DNA of 64,000 bases from Motilibacter rhizosphaerae. Lineage in GTDB: Bacteria > Actinomycetota > Actinomycetes > Motilibacterales > Motilibacteraceae. The position numbers and the translations under genes are program-made. The stretch is from positions 62,001 to 126,000 of the forward strand of contig NZ_SGXD01000002.1 in assembly GCF_004216915.1 (NCBI RefSeq), given 5' to 3'. This document shows, in pieces, positions 37,759 through 57,897 of the stretch. Numbering within the stretch: position 1 is the first letter of the stretch; the number at the start of each line of letters is the position of its first letter. Below the pieces are notes generated by a model. The model did not search any database. It saw only the letters and a list, made by a program, of their open reading frames with translations, and was not told the origin of the DNA.

Positions 37759-38988
37759 ATGGCCAGCAGCGAGTTCGGCCGCGTCGCCGAGGACGGCACC
37801 GTCTACGTGACCGTCGGTGACGTCGAGCGGCCCGTCGGCTCCTACCCCGGGGCGACGCCGGAGGAGGCGCTGGCCTACTTCGCGCGCAAGTACGACGCGC
37901 TCGACGCCGAGGTGACCCTGCTGGAGCAGCGGGTCGCCAAGTCCGAGGTGGCGCTCAAGGACGTCGACGCCTCGGTCGAGCGGCTGCGCATCGCGGTCGC
38001 GACCGCCAACGCCGTGGGTGACCTCGCCGGTCTCTCGACGCGGCTCGACTCCCTCGCGGAGCGGGCGGCCGCCCGCCGCGTCGAGGCCGACGCCGCTCGG
38101 GCACAGGCACGCGAGAAGGCGCGCGAGGACAAGGAGCGGATCGTCACCGAGGCGGAGGGCCTCGCCACCGCGACGTCCTGGAAGGCGAGCGGCGACCGCT
38201 TCCGCGAGCTGCTCGACGAGTGGAAGAAGGCGCCGCGCCTCGACCGCCGCGCAGACGACGAGCTGTGGAAGCGCTTCAGCGCAGCGCGTTCGACGTTCGA
38301 CAAGTCGCGGCGGGCCCACTTCGCGTCGCTCGACGCCGAGCGCGCGGAGATCAAGGCGCGCAAGGAAGCGCTGGTGCGCAAGGCCGAGGAGCTCTCTACC
38401 TCCACCGAGTGGGGCGAGACCGCCGCCGCCTACCGCGACCTCATGCAGCAGTGGAAGACGTCGGGCCGCGCCGGCCGCGACGACGAAGAGGCGCTGTGGC
38501 AGCGCTTCCGCACCGCGCAGGACGTGTTCTTCGCCGCGCGCAACGCGACCTTCGACGTCCGCGACCAGGAGTTCCGCGGCAACCTCGAGCAGAAGGAGGC
38601 CCTGGTCGTCGAGGCCGAGGGCCTGCTCCCCATCACCGACCACCGCACCGCACGGCGCGCCCTGCGCTCCATCGGCGAGCGCTGGGAGGCCATCGGCCAC
38701 GTGCCGCGCGGCGACCGCGACCGCATCGAGGGCCGGCTGCGCCGCGTCGAGGACGCCGTCCGCGACGCCGAGCAGGCGGAGTGGCGGCGGACGAACCCCG
38801 AGGCGCGCGCCCGCGCCGAGGCCACCGTGAACCAGCTGCAGCAGTCGATCGCGCAGCTGGAGACGAAGGCGGAGAAGGCGCGCACGGCCGGCAAGGCGAA
38901 GGACGTCGCCGACGCCGAGGCCGCCATCGAGGCCCGCCGCTCCTGGCTGACGGAGGCCGAGAAGGCGCTGGCGGAGTTCACCGCCTGA
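37759..38988 (+). CDS. DUF349 domain protein
   Basis: A cytoplasmic, strongly helical and charged protein of 409 residues, 2 nt after the cyclophilin gene. An N-terminal coiled-coil (about residues 35-130, rich in Ala, Arg, Glu) precedes three DUF349 repeats at about 135-195, 210-270 and 285-345, each with a WK/WE turn (RFRELLDEWKKA, AYRDLMQQWKTSG, ALRSIGERWEAIG). A final coiled-coil follows. Molecular function of the family is not known to me. Its neighbourhood next to relA is conserved in actinobacteria. Confidence 0.88.
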   Translation: MASSEFGRVAEDGTVYVTVGDVERPVGSYPGATPEEALAYFARKYDALDAEVTLLEQRVAKSEVALKDVDASVERLRIAVATANAVGDLAGLSTRLDSLAERAAARRVEADAARAQAREKAREDKERIVTEAEGLATATSWKASGDRFRELLDEWKKAPRLDRRADDELWKRFSAARSTFDKSRRAHFASLDAERAEIKARKEALVRKAEELSTSTEWGETAAAYRDLMQQWKTSGRAGRDDEEALWQRFRTAQDVFFAARNATFDVRDQEFRGNLEQKEALVVEAEGLLPITDHRTARRALRSIGERWEAIGHVPRGDRDRIEGRLRRVEDAVRDAEQAEWRRTNPEARARAEATVNQLQQSIAQLETKAEKARTAGKAKDVADAEAAIEARRSWLTEAEKALAEFTA

Positions 38989-39000
38989 CCCCCACCCCCT

Positions 39001-39124
39001 CGTGATCATGCAGATCCTGGGCACCCCTCCCCCGTGATCATGCACGTCCTGGGCACAACCCCTTCTCGTGATCATGCACATCGTGGGCTCCAACCCCTGC
39101 CCGTGATCATGCACGTGTCGGGGC
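39001..39124 (+). repeat. Repeat block A: four direct copies of a 23-bp CGTGATCATGCA element
   Basis: Copies start at 39001, 39033, 39067 and 39102, each CGTGATCATGCA followed by a more variable RTCCTGGGC-like half. Spacing is 32-35 bp with 9-12 bp C-rich gaps. The block starts 12 nt after the DUF349 stop and ends about 96 bp before the DUF559-like gene. TGATCA is a palindromic core; in copies 2 and 4 CGTG/CACG can pair. The element recurs inverted in block B and in block C. Confidence 0.9.
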
Positions 39125-39220
39125 GGTCCACAGGGCTGCCCTGCGTCGGACAGCCTGAGTCGTCCACAACTCACGGCCACGGGAGCGCAGCACCGCCGTC
39201 TTCGGTCGACCCTGCTCGTC

Positions 39221-40108
39221 GTGCGCCCCTTCACCACCGCTCAGTTCCTGCAGCACGGCTCCTACGAGGAGCTGCGCCGGCGCGTACGCGACGGGGACGT
39301 CCGCCGTGTCACCAAGGGCGTCTACCTCCCCGCCGGAGCCCCCGACGACATCGTCACGCGCCTGCAGGTCGCCGCACTGGTCCTGCCCGAGGGCGGGGTG
39401 CTCGCCCGTCGGGGTGCGGCGTGGGCGTACGGCATCGACGCCCGGCCGCCAGGCACCGAGCGGGAGGCCCTCGTCCTCGAGGTCGCGGTGCCGCGGGGCG
39501 TGCAGCCGGTACGCCGGGCGGGCCTGCGCTGCTTCGTCGAGGACCTGGCAGCCGGCGACGTCCACCGGCTCGACGGTGTCCCCGTCACCACGCCGCTGCG
39601 CACGGCGGCAGATCTTGCTCGCTGGCTGCCGCGCCCTGACGCCCTCGCTGCGCTGGACGCCCTGAGCCGCAGCGGCGCACTGGACCGTACGGGCCTCGCC
39701 AGAGAGCTCGACCGGTGGACGGGCTACGCGCATGTGCGGCAGGCGCGGGAGTTGGCCGCCCTGGTGGAGCCGCGCAGCGAGTCCTGGGGCGAGTCGACGA
39801 CCCGCCTCCGGCTGCACGACGCCGGGTTCCCGGCGCCCGCCGCGCAGGTGGAGGTCATCGTCGGGCGCCGCAGGTTCCGGCTCGACCTCGCGTGGACCCG
39901 GCTGCGCAAGGCCCTCGAGTACGACGGGCAGGAGTGGCACTCGAGCGCGAAGCAGCGGCGCCGCGACGAGGAGCGCCGGCGCCTGCTGGGGTCGGTCGGG
40001 TGGGAGGTCGCCGTCGTGACGAAGGAGCACGTGCTCGGCCGGGGACGGCACTTCGAGGAGGTCGTGGCCCGGCTGCTCGGAGTAGTGCCCGAGCGGCTCG
40101 CCAGCTGA
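39221..40108 (+). CDS. AbiEi-like N-terminus / DUF559 endonuclease-fold protein
   Basis: The protein has 295 residues with a GTG start and no clear ribosome site. Residues 1-75 resemble the winged-helix start of AbiEi-type antitoxins (EELRRRVRDGDVRRVTKGVYLPAG). Residues 185-285 resemble a DUF559/Vsr-like PD-(D/E)XK nuclease: Glu191 in SWGESTTR, Asp222 in RFRLDLAW, and EYDG (233-236). Proteins of this build are common and variable in actinobacteria. No AbiEii toxin partner lies next to it. It is bracketed by oppositely oriented repeat blocks A and B. Function unknown; a nuclease or defence role is inference. Confidence 0.78.
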   Translation: MRPFTTAQFLQHGSYEELRRRVRDGDVRRVTKGVYLPAGAPDDIVTRLQVAALVLPEGGVLARRGAAWAYGIDARPPGTEREALVLEVAVPRGVQPVRRAGLRCFVEDLAAGDVHRLDGVPVTTPLRTAADLARWLPRPDALAALDALSRSGALDRTGLARELDRWTGYAHVRQARELAALVEPRSESWGESTTRLRLHDAGFPAPAAQVEVIVGRRRFRLDLAWTRLRKALEYDGQEWHSSAKQRRRDEERRRLLGSVGWEVAVVTKEHVLGRGRHFEEVVARLLGVVPERLAS

Positions 40109-40109
40109 T

Positions 40110-40230
40110 CGACCAGGACGTGCATGATCACGGGGAAGGAGATGCTGTAACGCCCCCCACGAAGTGCATGATCACGGAGAGGTGGGCGCGCACCGGCCCA
40201 CCCCAGCCCTCCAGGATCTGCATGATCACG
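40110..40230 (-). repeat. Repeat block B: three copies of the same element, inverted
   Basis: Copies read TGCATGATCACG, ending at 40132, 40176 and 40230; copies 1 and 3 keep the CCAGGA part, copy 2 only the core. They lie between the convergent DUF559-like gene and relA, in the opposite orientation to block A. No other gene is supported here. Confidence 0.88.
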
Positions 40231-40259
40231 GGGGGAAGGGTGGCCCAGCCGACCCGGGG

Positions 40260-42620
40260 TCAGGCGAGCGCGGGGGCGGTGCTCGTCACGCGGTAGACGT
40301 CGTAGACGCCCTCGACACCGCGTACGGCGCGGAGCACGTGCCCGAGGTGTGTGGGGTCGCCCATCTCGAAGGTGAAGCGGGAGACCGCGACGCGGTCGCG
40401 GGTCGTCGTCACCGATGCGGAGAGGATGTTGACGTGCTGGTCGGACAGCGCACGGGTGACGTCCGACAGCAGCCGCGAGCGGTCGAGCGCCTCGACCTGG
40501 ATCGCGACGAGGAAGACCGAGTTTGAGGTCGGAGCCCACTCGACGTCGACCATGCGGTCGGGGTCGAGCGCCTCGCCGACGACGTTGACGCAGTCGCCGC
40601 GGTGCACGGAGACGCCGTTGCCGCGCGTCACGAAGCCGACGATCGGGTCGCCCGGCACGGGCGTGCAGCAGCGGGCCAGCTTGATCCAGACGTCCGGCGC
40701 ACCAGAGACGATGACGCCGGGGTCACCGGCCGGCCGGGCCCGCCCGCGGGCGACGCGGGGCGAGGTCGGGACCGTCGCCTCGGCGATGTCCTCCTCGGCG
40801 CCCTCCTCGCCGCCGAACAGCACGACGAGCTTGCTGACGACGGACTGGGCGGAGACGTGGTTCTCGCCGATCGCGGCGTAGAGCGAGGAGATGTCCGGGT
40901 AGCGCAGCTCGGCGGCCAGCCCGGTCAGCGCCTCGCTGGAGAGCAGCCGCTGGATCGGGAGGTTCTGCTTGCGTAGGGCGCGCGCGAGCTGGTCCTTGCC
41001 CTGCTCGATCGCCTCCTCGCGGCGCTCCTTGGAGAACCAGTGGCGGATCTTGTTGCGGGCACGCGGCGAGGCGACGAAGCCCAGCCAGTCCCTCGACGGT
41101 CCGGCACCAGCGGCCTTCGAGGTGAAGATCTCGACCGCGTCGCCGTTCTCCAGCGTCGACTCGAGCGGCACGAGCCGCCCGTTCACGCGGGCGCCGATGC
41201 AGCGGTGCCCGACCTCGGTGTGCACGGCGTACGCGAAGTCCACCGGCGTCGAGCCCGCGGGCAGGGCGATGACGTCGCCCTTGGGCGTGAAGACGAAGAC
41301 CTCGGAGGTCTGCAGGTCGAAGCGCAGCGAGTCGAGGAACTCCCCCGGGTCCTCGGTCTCGCGCTGCCAGTCGAGCAGCTGGCGCAGCCACGGCATGTCG
41401 TTGCTGCCGCTCTCCGCGGCGCCGCTGGGGCGCGCCTCCTCCTTGTACTTCCAGTGGGCGGCGACGCCGTACTCCGCGCGGCGGTGCATCGCGTGCGTGC
41501 GGATCTGCAGCTCGACGGGCTTGCCGTCCGGCCCGATCACCGTCGTGTGCAGCGACTGGTAGAGGTTGAACTTGGGCATCGCGATGTAGTCCTTGAACCG
41601 CCCGGGCACGGGGTTCCACCGCGCGTGCACCGAGCCGAGGACCGCGTAGCAGTCGCGGACGCTGTCGACGAGGATGCGCACGCCGACGAGGTCGTAGATG
41701 TCGGCGAAGTCGCGGCCGCGCACGATCATCTTCTGGTAGACGGAGTAGTAGTGCTTCGGCCGGCCCGTCACCACGCACTTGATCTTCGAGTCGCGCAGGT
41801 CGCTGGTGACGAGGTCGATGACGCGGGCGAGGTACTCGTCACGGCTGGGCGCGCGGTCGGCGACGAGGCGGACGATCTCGTCGTACATCTTCGGGTAGAG
41901 CGTCGCGAACGAGAGGTCCTCGAGCTCCCACTTGATGGTGTTCATGCCGAGCCGGTGCGCCAGCGGCGCGTAGATCTCGAGGGTCTCGCGCGCCTTGCGC
42001 TCCGCCTTCTCCGCCGGGATGTAGCGCCAGGTGCGGGCGTTGTGCAGCCGGTCGGCCAGCTTGATGACGAGCACGCGGATGTCGCGCGACATCGCGACGA
42101 CCATCTTGCGGACGGTCTCGGCCTGGGCGGCCTCGCCGTACTTCACCTTGTCGAGCTTGGTGACGCCGTCGACGAGCGCGGCGATCTCGTCGCCGAAGTC
42201 GCCGCGCAGCTGGACGAGGGTGTACTCGGTGTCCTCGACGGTGTCGTGCAGCAGCGCCGCGCACAGCGTCGGCACCGTCATGCCGAGCTCGGCGAGGATG
42301 GTGGCGACCGCGAGCGGGTGCGTGATGTACGGGTCGCCGCTGCGCCGCCGCTGGCCGCGGTGGCACCGCTCGGCGATGTCGTAGGCCCGCTCGAGGTCGC
42401 GCAGGTCGGCCTTGGGGTGCGTCGCGCGAACGGTCCGGAACAGCGGCTCGAGGACCGGGTTGGTGCTGCGCTGCGCACCGAGGCGGGCGAGCCGCTTGCG
42501 GACGCGCGCGGCGCTGACGGAGCCGTCGGCCGCGGGCTTGGGGGCGCTCGCCGGGGCGTCAGCGGGCGTGCCGTCCTCCGCTCGGTCGGACTCGACCGTC
42601 GCGACACGCTCGTCCGCCAC
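40260..42620 (-). CDS. relA: Bifunctional (p)ppGpp synthetase/hydrolase
   Basis: An RSH enzyme controlling the stringent response. The 786-residue protein starts at GTG with GCGAGGAGC upstream. The HD hydrolase domain has LLHDTVEDT and [11 protein letters not shown]. The synthetase domain has [24 protein letters not shown] and [13 protein letters not shown] ([27 protein letters not shown]), helical and ACT ([17 protein letters not shown]) domains follow. Both activities are expected because the HD residues are intact. It follows apt, as is typical. Confidence 0.97.
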
Positions 42621-48851: not shown

Positions 48852-48984
48852 CCAGTTGATCGGGGTGCCCGATCGACTGGGGCCGCGGACCGCACCAGGT
48901 GTGCGGCCCGTCCAGCAAGGGGGCCCGTCCCGAGCAGATCCGCTCGGGACGGGCCCCGGTTGATCGGGGACCCCGATCAACTGG
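48852..48984. repeat. Symmetrical hairpin cluster between yebC and ruvC
   Basis: Two near-identical inverted repeats, CCAGTTGATCGGG/CCCGATCGACTGG (48852-48880) and GTTGATCGGGG/CCCCGATCAAC (48959-48981), flank a small hairpin (48890-48906) and a 16-bp stem. A shared GTTGATCGGG palindrome on both outer sides gives the block mirror symmetry. Part may terminate yebC; the outer pair has no known role. Confidence 0.75.
48920..48957 (-). terminator. Strong terminator after yebC
   Basis: GGGGCCCGTCCCGAGC (48920-48935) and GCTCGGGACGGGCCCC (48942-48957) form a perfect 16-bp stem with a 6-nt loop, 45 nt past the yebC stop. It should isolate ruvCAB from the pdx-yebC transcript. Confidence 0.85.
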
Positions 48985-57778: not shown

Positions 57779-57897
57779 CGTGATCATGCAGATCCTGTGG
57801 GCGGCACCCGCACCTTCCCCGCGACCCCTCCCCCGTGATCATGCAGATCCTGTGGGCGGCACCCGCACCTTCCCCGTGATCATGCAGGTCTTGGGCG
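57779..57897 (+). repeat. Repeat block C: three direct copies of the CGTGATCATGCA element
   Basis: Copies start at 57779, 57834 and 57875. Copies 1 and 2 are identical over about 45 bp, including a GTGGGCGGCACCCGC extension, so they look like a recent tandem duplication. Copy 3 has GGTCTTGGGCG. The block fills the gap between the convergent AIM24 and SDR genes. Confidence 0.9.

Follow-up and report, generated by a model that had tools for sequence, protein, structure and literature searches.

A dodecamer repeat dispersed between genes and the AbiEi-Vsr/EDxHD-fold nuclease gene that it frames: a probable REPtron-like system in Actinobacteria

In a window of 64,000 nucleotides (the whole stretch of DNA analyzed here), the gene at 39221-40108 and the dodecamer repeats around it on balance probably form one REPtron-like system, made up of a cognate nuclease, a repeat frame around its gene, a genome-wide repeat population, and a proposed way of spreading. 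The repeat is dispersed over the genome and placed between genes, relatives of the gene are framed in many lineages, paralogs have repeats of their own, the type of repeat is associated with the clade on a tree of the relatives, and acidic residues of the nuclease domain are invariant. From this, we infer that the enzyme would drive the dispersal or conversion of the repeats. The dodecamer repeat appears to belong to the framed nuclease gene, and framed nucleases with their own repeats look like a new kind of selfish repeat system.

The original prediction for this region had offered a non-autonomous mobile element, a protein-binding array, and a transcription end signal. Since the inverted frame described there around the DUF559/AbiEi-like gene was confirmed and is seen again at related genes of other families, a mobile-element-like system has the best support, with the framed gene as its likely cognate enzyme. 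The RNA end signal is the weaker reading, and the link from the gene to a genome-wide repeat was no part of that prediction.

Occurrence of the dodecamer in the window and across genomes

The features of the window are as follows.

39001..39113, + strand: left block of four direct dodecamer copies (39001, 39033, 39067, 39102), exact matches, each followed by a tail near SRTCYTGGG
39127-39132 and 39163-39168, no strand assigned: two TCCACA motifs in the interval between the left block and the gene, read in the sequence
39221..40108, + strand: framed nuclease gene, 295 aa, from gene prediction, Pfam, and predicted structure
40121..40230, - strand: right block of three inverted dodecamer copies (40121, 40165, 40219), exact matches
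48856..48980, no strand assigned: two copies of a second dispersed repeat family, TTGATCGGGGNNCCCGATC, from a pattern search
57779..57886, + strand: second cluster of three direct dodecamer copies (57779, 57834, 57875), between convergent genes and without a nuclease gene

The dodecamer CGTGATCATGCA has ten exact copies in the window, compared with a mean of 0.15 and a maximum of 1 in shuffled sequence, and a search allowing up to one mismatch still returned 10 matches, every one of them exact. As had been predicted, four direct copies lie to the left of the gene and three inverted copies to its right. The pitch of the left block, given as 32-35 bp, was measured as 32, 34, and 35. The stated gaps of 9-12 bp hold only if the longer unit of dodecamer and tail is counted; between the dodecamers, the gaps are 20, 22, and 23 nt. 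Alignment of 40 copies from the source genome (G000) gave a repeat unit of a C-rich lead, the 12-mer, and a tail near SRTCYTGGG, with CYCCCGTGATCATGCASRTCYTGGG as the consensus.

Other origins of the repeat were considered and rejected. The blocks had been described as array-like yet not CRISPR, and we came to the same view because the gaps are too short (CRISPR spacers have about 25-40 nt); they are largely filled by the shared tail and the C-rich lead. A coding origin of the tail, whose variable positions coincide with third codon positions in one reverse-strand frame, was set aside because the copies lie between genes. The dodecamer is part of one predicted ArgR site of Streptomyces coelicolor (available excerpt of PMC5839063), and the idea of an ArgR box was dropped as this is a single predicted site. 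An Rfam search of 38800-40400 gave no match up to E 1.

Neither of the two outcomes named beforehand as fatal, a random genome-wide frequency and a lack of intergenic preference, was found: the 4.3-Mb source genome holds 287 copies of CGTGATCATGCA and none of the reversed pattern, and 74 of the 76 sampled copies lie between predicted genes. The sample covers 260 kb, in which the stretches other than the window were chosen because they hold copies and the genes come from a purpose-written gene finder; it contains 76 exact and 10 one-mismatch copies (both reversed controls 0). Of the spacers in the sampled loci, 24 are convergent and 15 of these hold the core; the numbers are 13 of 75 for tandem spacers and 1 of 29 for divergent ones. 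The orientation of the copies relative to the genes is true by construction in convergent and divergent spacers, and tandem spacers alone are informative. There, the ratio of same to opposite orientation was 24:6 in G000, 8:1 in G033, 11:10 in G157 and G256 together, and 49:46 in the named loci, a set picked for inverted pairs. Counted by cluster, the tandem spacers of G000 gave seven same, three opposite, and three mixed orientations. Orientation is not used as support for our explanation.

If the 12-mer were a DNA uptake sequence, that is, an import signal accumulated through transformation, an invariant 12-nt core, hundreds of copies, and inverted pairs would be expected as well. DNA uptake sequences are common inside genes; however, only 2 of the 76 sampled copies lie within predicted genes. 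The tails are genome-specific, the framed gene encodes a nuclease, and other nucleases of the family come with other repeats. We regard an uptake signal as barely credible.

RNA 3′-end or terminator elements, between which the nuclease gene would be framed by chance as it lies between convergent genes, agree with the position of the copies at gene ends and with two solo inverted pairs that form strong hairpins (z -7.2 and -6.5 vs. shuffles). However, folding of the direct arrays on either side of the window gene is not stronger than that of shuffles (z -0.74 and 0.08), and a search for a T-tailed terminator in 38950-40300 found none. As an account of the whole, we consider this very unlikely. 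Single copies could have an RNA end-signal role because they favor convergent and tandem spacers, but such a role leaves the repeats specific to each nuclease gene unexplained. Simple insertion does not account for the regular direct arrays.

Across the class, at least 20 copies are present in 7 of 393 genomes (G033 288, G000 287, G256 100, G003 35, G157 29, G075 22, and G140 20), and the remaining 386 hold 0-8. The same-genus genome G001 has 0 copies; G002 and G004 have 0 and 2 exact copies, respectively. A scan of named genomes found inverted pairs in at least Planotetraspora, Kineosporia, Bailinhaonella, Actinomadura, and several draft genomes. The 12-mer is constant across actinobacterial orders, and the approximately 10 nt after it are genome-specific: near ATCCCGCCACCC in G033, CGCCAGCGCA in G256, CGTTCGCCCC in G157, CTTTCGA in draft MAG-70, and GTTTTGAGCACA in Bailinhaonella.

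In aligned spacers of G256 and G157, the core is absent from G157 at three sites, one of which holds the repeat of another nuclease, and two sites have the core in both genomes, each with its own genome's tail. As far as these alignments go, the differences fit turnover and homogenization inside a genome; hot-spot insertion may be an alternative. No target-site duplication was seen in these spacers, which are too diverged for a clean call.

The framed nuclease and its relatives

The 295-aa product scored above the Pfam cut-offs for AbiEi_4 and AbiEi_1 and below the cut-off for MTES_1575 (34 vs. 38.2 bits). Matches were confined to AbiEi and MTES_1575 families, with no transposase family among them, and the protein has no strand-transfer domain. 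In the predicted structure (pLDDT 93.6), residues 1-183 resemble the AbiEi antitoxin 6y8q (Z 10.4), and residues 188-288 match the catalytic domain of I-Bth0305I (3r3p; Z 12.1, rmsd 2.7 over 93 residues). Vsr is a further structural match of the nuclease domain (Z 9.4). Judged by this model, the product is a fusion of an AbiEi-like DNA-binding region and a Vsr/EDxHD-fold nuclease domain of the DUF559/MTES_1575 type. All 31 relatives compared carry E191, D222, and D249, and 21 of the 31 have His at H240; these four positions are candidate counterparts of the E, D, H, and D catalytic residues of EDxHD enzymes.

The window gene is adjacent to a DUF349-like gene and relA, both named by eye from the sequence, and neither an AbiEii gene nor a defense gene is found beside it. 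Nucleases of the window family are 46-56% identical, and the adjoining RelA is 80-85% identical in G002, G003, and G004. At the locus common to G157 and G256, the nucleases are 53% identical compared with 80-85% for the three nearest neighbors, and the repeats differ between the two genes. Fast evolution at this one shared locus is consistent with a defense or conflict module, in which the nuclease would guard against foreign DNA and the repeats would serve to mark, titrate, or restrain it. Domains of the AbiEi and Vsr types occur widely in conflict systems. However, the neighbors of the window gene include no defense genes, and neither genome-specific tails nor solo hairpins are predicted by such a module, which we hold to be decidedly unlikely.

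In all seven high-copy genomes, the gene's closest relative is bracketed by inverted copies, either of the core or of a variant. The frames consist of exact cores in G000, G256, and G157, of an exact core on the right and GGTGATCATGCA on the left in G033, of variants in G003 and G140, and of hairpin copies in G075. G002 and G004 have the gene at the same relA-side locus with a single imperfect repeat at each end; the frame in G004 is one 48-nt arm pair with 83% complementarity. In G001, there is no close relative (best 50 bits) and the DNA beside relA differs. The relatives that a profile search found in G001 group with paralogs of G000.

In a set of 864 kb that comprises the window and 400 kb each of G256 and G157, with the framing loci of the latter two left out, 1 of 762 genes, the window gene, has core copies oriented as a frame within 400 nt to its left and to its right. 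At repeat-rich places, non-nuclease genes also lie between + and - copies, for example, at L082, L090, L096, L097, and L032. The first frames in other genomes were picked from the copy list for + and then - copies about 1 kb apart, and two of them (L081 and L085) contain a DUF559 gene.

Of at least 21 named organisms, 18 were tested (Planotetraspora mira, Actinomadura litoris, and A. rubrisoli were left out). In 7 of these 18 named repeat-bearing genomes, core copies flank a relative on both sides; in the other 11, they do not. The frames are clean in five named genomes (K. mesophila, three Planotetraspora, and draft BWSM_131), and Actinomadura alba and Actinomadura sp. HBU206391 (L246, L247) have hairpin copies of mixed orientation with a frame score below 40. 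The relative in Bailinhaonella has a single core copy on one side only, and those in four Actinomadura (L248-L251) are unframed. Planotetraspora sp. A-T 1434 and two Kineosporiaceae drafts have relatives with other repeats; P. phitsanulokensis and RYN_225 gave weak hits only. In RYN_229, which has 14 or more hairpin loci, no relative was found at E 0.001; among the genomes whose only relatives have other repeats, MAG-70 has 25 or more such loci.

Some observations on these loci are added here. The core hairpins in the drafts MAG-70 and RYN_229 (L102-L180) are very regular, and no cognate framed nuclease was found with them; one explanation is that the drafts lack the gene, the other that the repeats persist in its absence. 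The Planotetraspora frames (L242-L244) contain arrays of 53-nt pitch, compared with 32-35 nt in the window. In several genera (L212, L242, L243, L244), the element is in the same spacer between P450-like and sugar-nucleotide-enzyme-like genes, and in two families (L208, L314), it adjoins a clpX-like gene (all named by eye). Such recurrent positions are either old shared loci or preferred sites.

Repeats of other DUF559-type genes

A DUF559-type gene is present in 121 of 148 class genomes at E 1e-10. An inverted-repeat frame (score of at least 40, a cut fixed after the scores of earlier relatives were known) was found around 23 of 36 class-sampled DUF559 genes and around 5 of 283 control genes of similar size. 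Two of the five framed controls are DUF559 relatives, one is beside core hairpins, and two are neither. Twenty class loci were hand-picked, one per genome, from the listed high-scoring matches; hence, the class sample stands for high-scoring relatives. The 36 genes exclude the contig-end loci (L322, L324, L335, L338, L339, L342, L354) and the loci from already-tested genomes (L310-L313, L315, L317, L337).

The frame sequences differ among the DUF559 genes, and several begin TTGATCATG-like. The second family of G000, TTGATCGGGGNNCCCGATC, frames the DUF559 paralog at G000:C3:379012-379740; its near-palindromic pattern has 29 matches at 20 sites (reversed control 0). A repeat derived from the flanks of a G033 paralog has 93 matches in its own genome, and one derived from the flanks of a DUF559 gene in draft G406 has 33, with 0 for both in the reversed control and in the two other genomes searched. 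The exact repeat patterns of the other G256 and G157 nuclease genes gave 0 matches in 400 kb of each genome, so dispersal is not established for every frame repeat; a variant of one of these repeats was recognized by eye at a site in G157. In one draft genome, three paralogs (L240, L257, L266) have three different repeats.

Mapped on the tree of 85 relatives, core-type framing shows 8 changes, compared with a mean of 16.5 and a minimum of 12 for shuffled states. Having any inverted repeat is unclustered on the same tree, with 17 changes (shuffled mean 20.8, minimum 15). The set comprises 18 core-framed, 43 otherwise framed, and 24 unframed genes, after the removal of 19 loci by name, as fragments, duplicates, or truncated loci, and of two by score or length.

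Convergent neighbors flank 16 of the 18 core-framed genes, 30 of the 42 with another frame, and 8 of the 22 without a frame, as well as 47 of 287 controls. The first of these values is in line with terminator elements that frame the gene by chance. Yet controls also have convergent neighbors, in the proportion just given, and inverted-repeat frames occur in only 5 of 283; moreover, paralogs differ in their repeats, and those repeats are the dispersed ones.

Within 300 nt upstream, TCCACA or TGTGGA is found at 76 of the 85 DUF559 genes and at 18 of the 286 controls; the downstream counts are 3 and 8, respectively. Upstream of some DUF559 genes (L205-L359), the motif is part of a DnaA-box-like TGTGGATAAC. 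Such a conserved upstream motif suggests gene regulation, and AbiEi autoregulates. An operator network without mobility would have the AbiEi-like domain bind repeats at its own gene and at hundreds of gene ends, with the nuclease doing something else and the repeats spreading by selected regulation. The wing-helix-type AbiEi domain of the product and the invariance of the 12-mer, of which near misses are very few (76 exact, 10 one-mismatch), are consistent with this. However, divergent spacers are avoided (1/29) and convergent ones favored (15/24), where promoters are unexpected. The gene is framed on its two sides, congeneric spacers differ in whether copies are present, and the invariant acidic pair (31/31) suggests that the nuclease matters. 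Such a network is rather unlikely, and a REPtron-like system is preferred.

In the open-licence literature, with no claim as to all print, we found no paper on the combination of DUF559 and inverted repeat. The same literature gave no paper for REP-associated, RAYT, and Actinobacteria together, and the inner letters of the dodecamer led to subjects that, judged by their titles, are unrelated.

Proposed mechanism and comparison with known systems

In the preferred REPtron-like system, the AbiEi-like part would probably bind the repeat through the core and the genome-specific tail, and the Vsr/EDxHD-fold domain would probably nick or cut at or beside it. Repair of the break or recombination would copy repeat sequence between sites. 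Such copying would disperse the repeats, hold the core constant, and homogenize the tail within each genome, with the repeat population retained in intergenic positions, chiefly at the ends of convergent and tandem genes.

A wider proposal, which we hold with equal belief and doubt, is that, in Actinomycetes, many AbiEi-Vsr/EDxHD nucleases of the DUF559 type each have a private repeat that frames the gene and is spread and homogenized by cutting and repair-copying. They would form a large, RAYT-independent class of selfish repeat systems with protein-repeat co-evolution and, in some genomes, several pairs. Position, specificity, and the tree link a widespread protein family, unrelated to RAYT, with repeats of its own, and on three occasions this link predicted a dispersed repeat family from the flanks of a gene. 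If dispersal is driven by the enzyme, intergenic repeat populations arose at least twice with unrelated enzymes, a little-studied nuclease family gains a function that can be tested, and a set of nucleases with their cognate sites is open to study.

Insertion sequences and MITEs also have one gene between inverted repeats and gene-less hairpin copies elsewhere. The system here differs in that no transposase domain was recognized in Pfam, no target-site duplication was found in the diverged spacers aligned, and the ends are often arrays. The AbiE type IV toxin-antitoxin system is similar in that residues 1-183 resemble AbiEi 6y8q (Z 10.4); in contrast, the AbiEi-like part is fused to a nuclease domain, and no AbiEii neighbor occurs at the window gene.

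The EDxHD homing endonuclease I-Bth0305I and Vsr share the nuclease fold (Z 12.1 and 9.4) and have a DNA-binding part attached. By analogy with EDxHD homing endonucleases (EDxHD enzymes are described in the available excerpt of PMC3943268), selfish behavior is plausible. Here, however, the binding part is AbiEi-like and hundreds of short repeats are dispersed, and the framed nuclease showed no association with an intron or intein and no sign of homing into an intact allele.

REPtrons combine REP/REPIN sequences with RAYT (TnpA-REP), and TIRtrons are also described (excerpts of PMC3733652, PMC8266576, and PMC3116915). A search of 10 genomes for the Y1/HUH tyrosine transposase (PF01797) found it in one, G140, and not in the other nine, which include G000, G003, G033, G157, G256, and G075; 5 of 14 control genomes were positive. 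This domain search rules out RAYT as the driver for 9 of the 10 genomes. G140 (L360-L362) is the sole genome of the ten with IS200/RAYT-type domains.

Compared with REPtrons as described in these excerpts, the enzyme here is an AbiEi and Vsr/EDxHD-fold protein, whereas theirs is an HUH tyrosine transposase. The dodecamer is without the GTAG or CGTC tag at a fixed end and instead has an invariant 12-mer, a genome-specific tail, and regular direct arrays. Hence, with no tyrosine transposase in 9 of 10 genomes and no GTAG/CGTC tag, the system would work like REP/RAYT without being a member. According to the same excerpts, the two have in common short repeats in hundreds of copies between genes, often in inverted pairs and mostly at convergent and tandem gene ends. 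In both, the gene is framed by the repeat and the type of repeat tracks the enzyme clade, the distribution is sporadic, and several pairs may coexist per genome.
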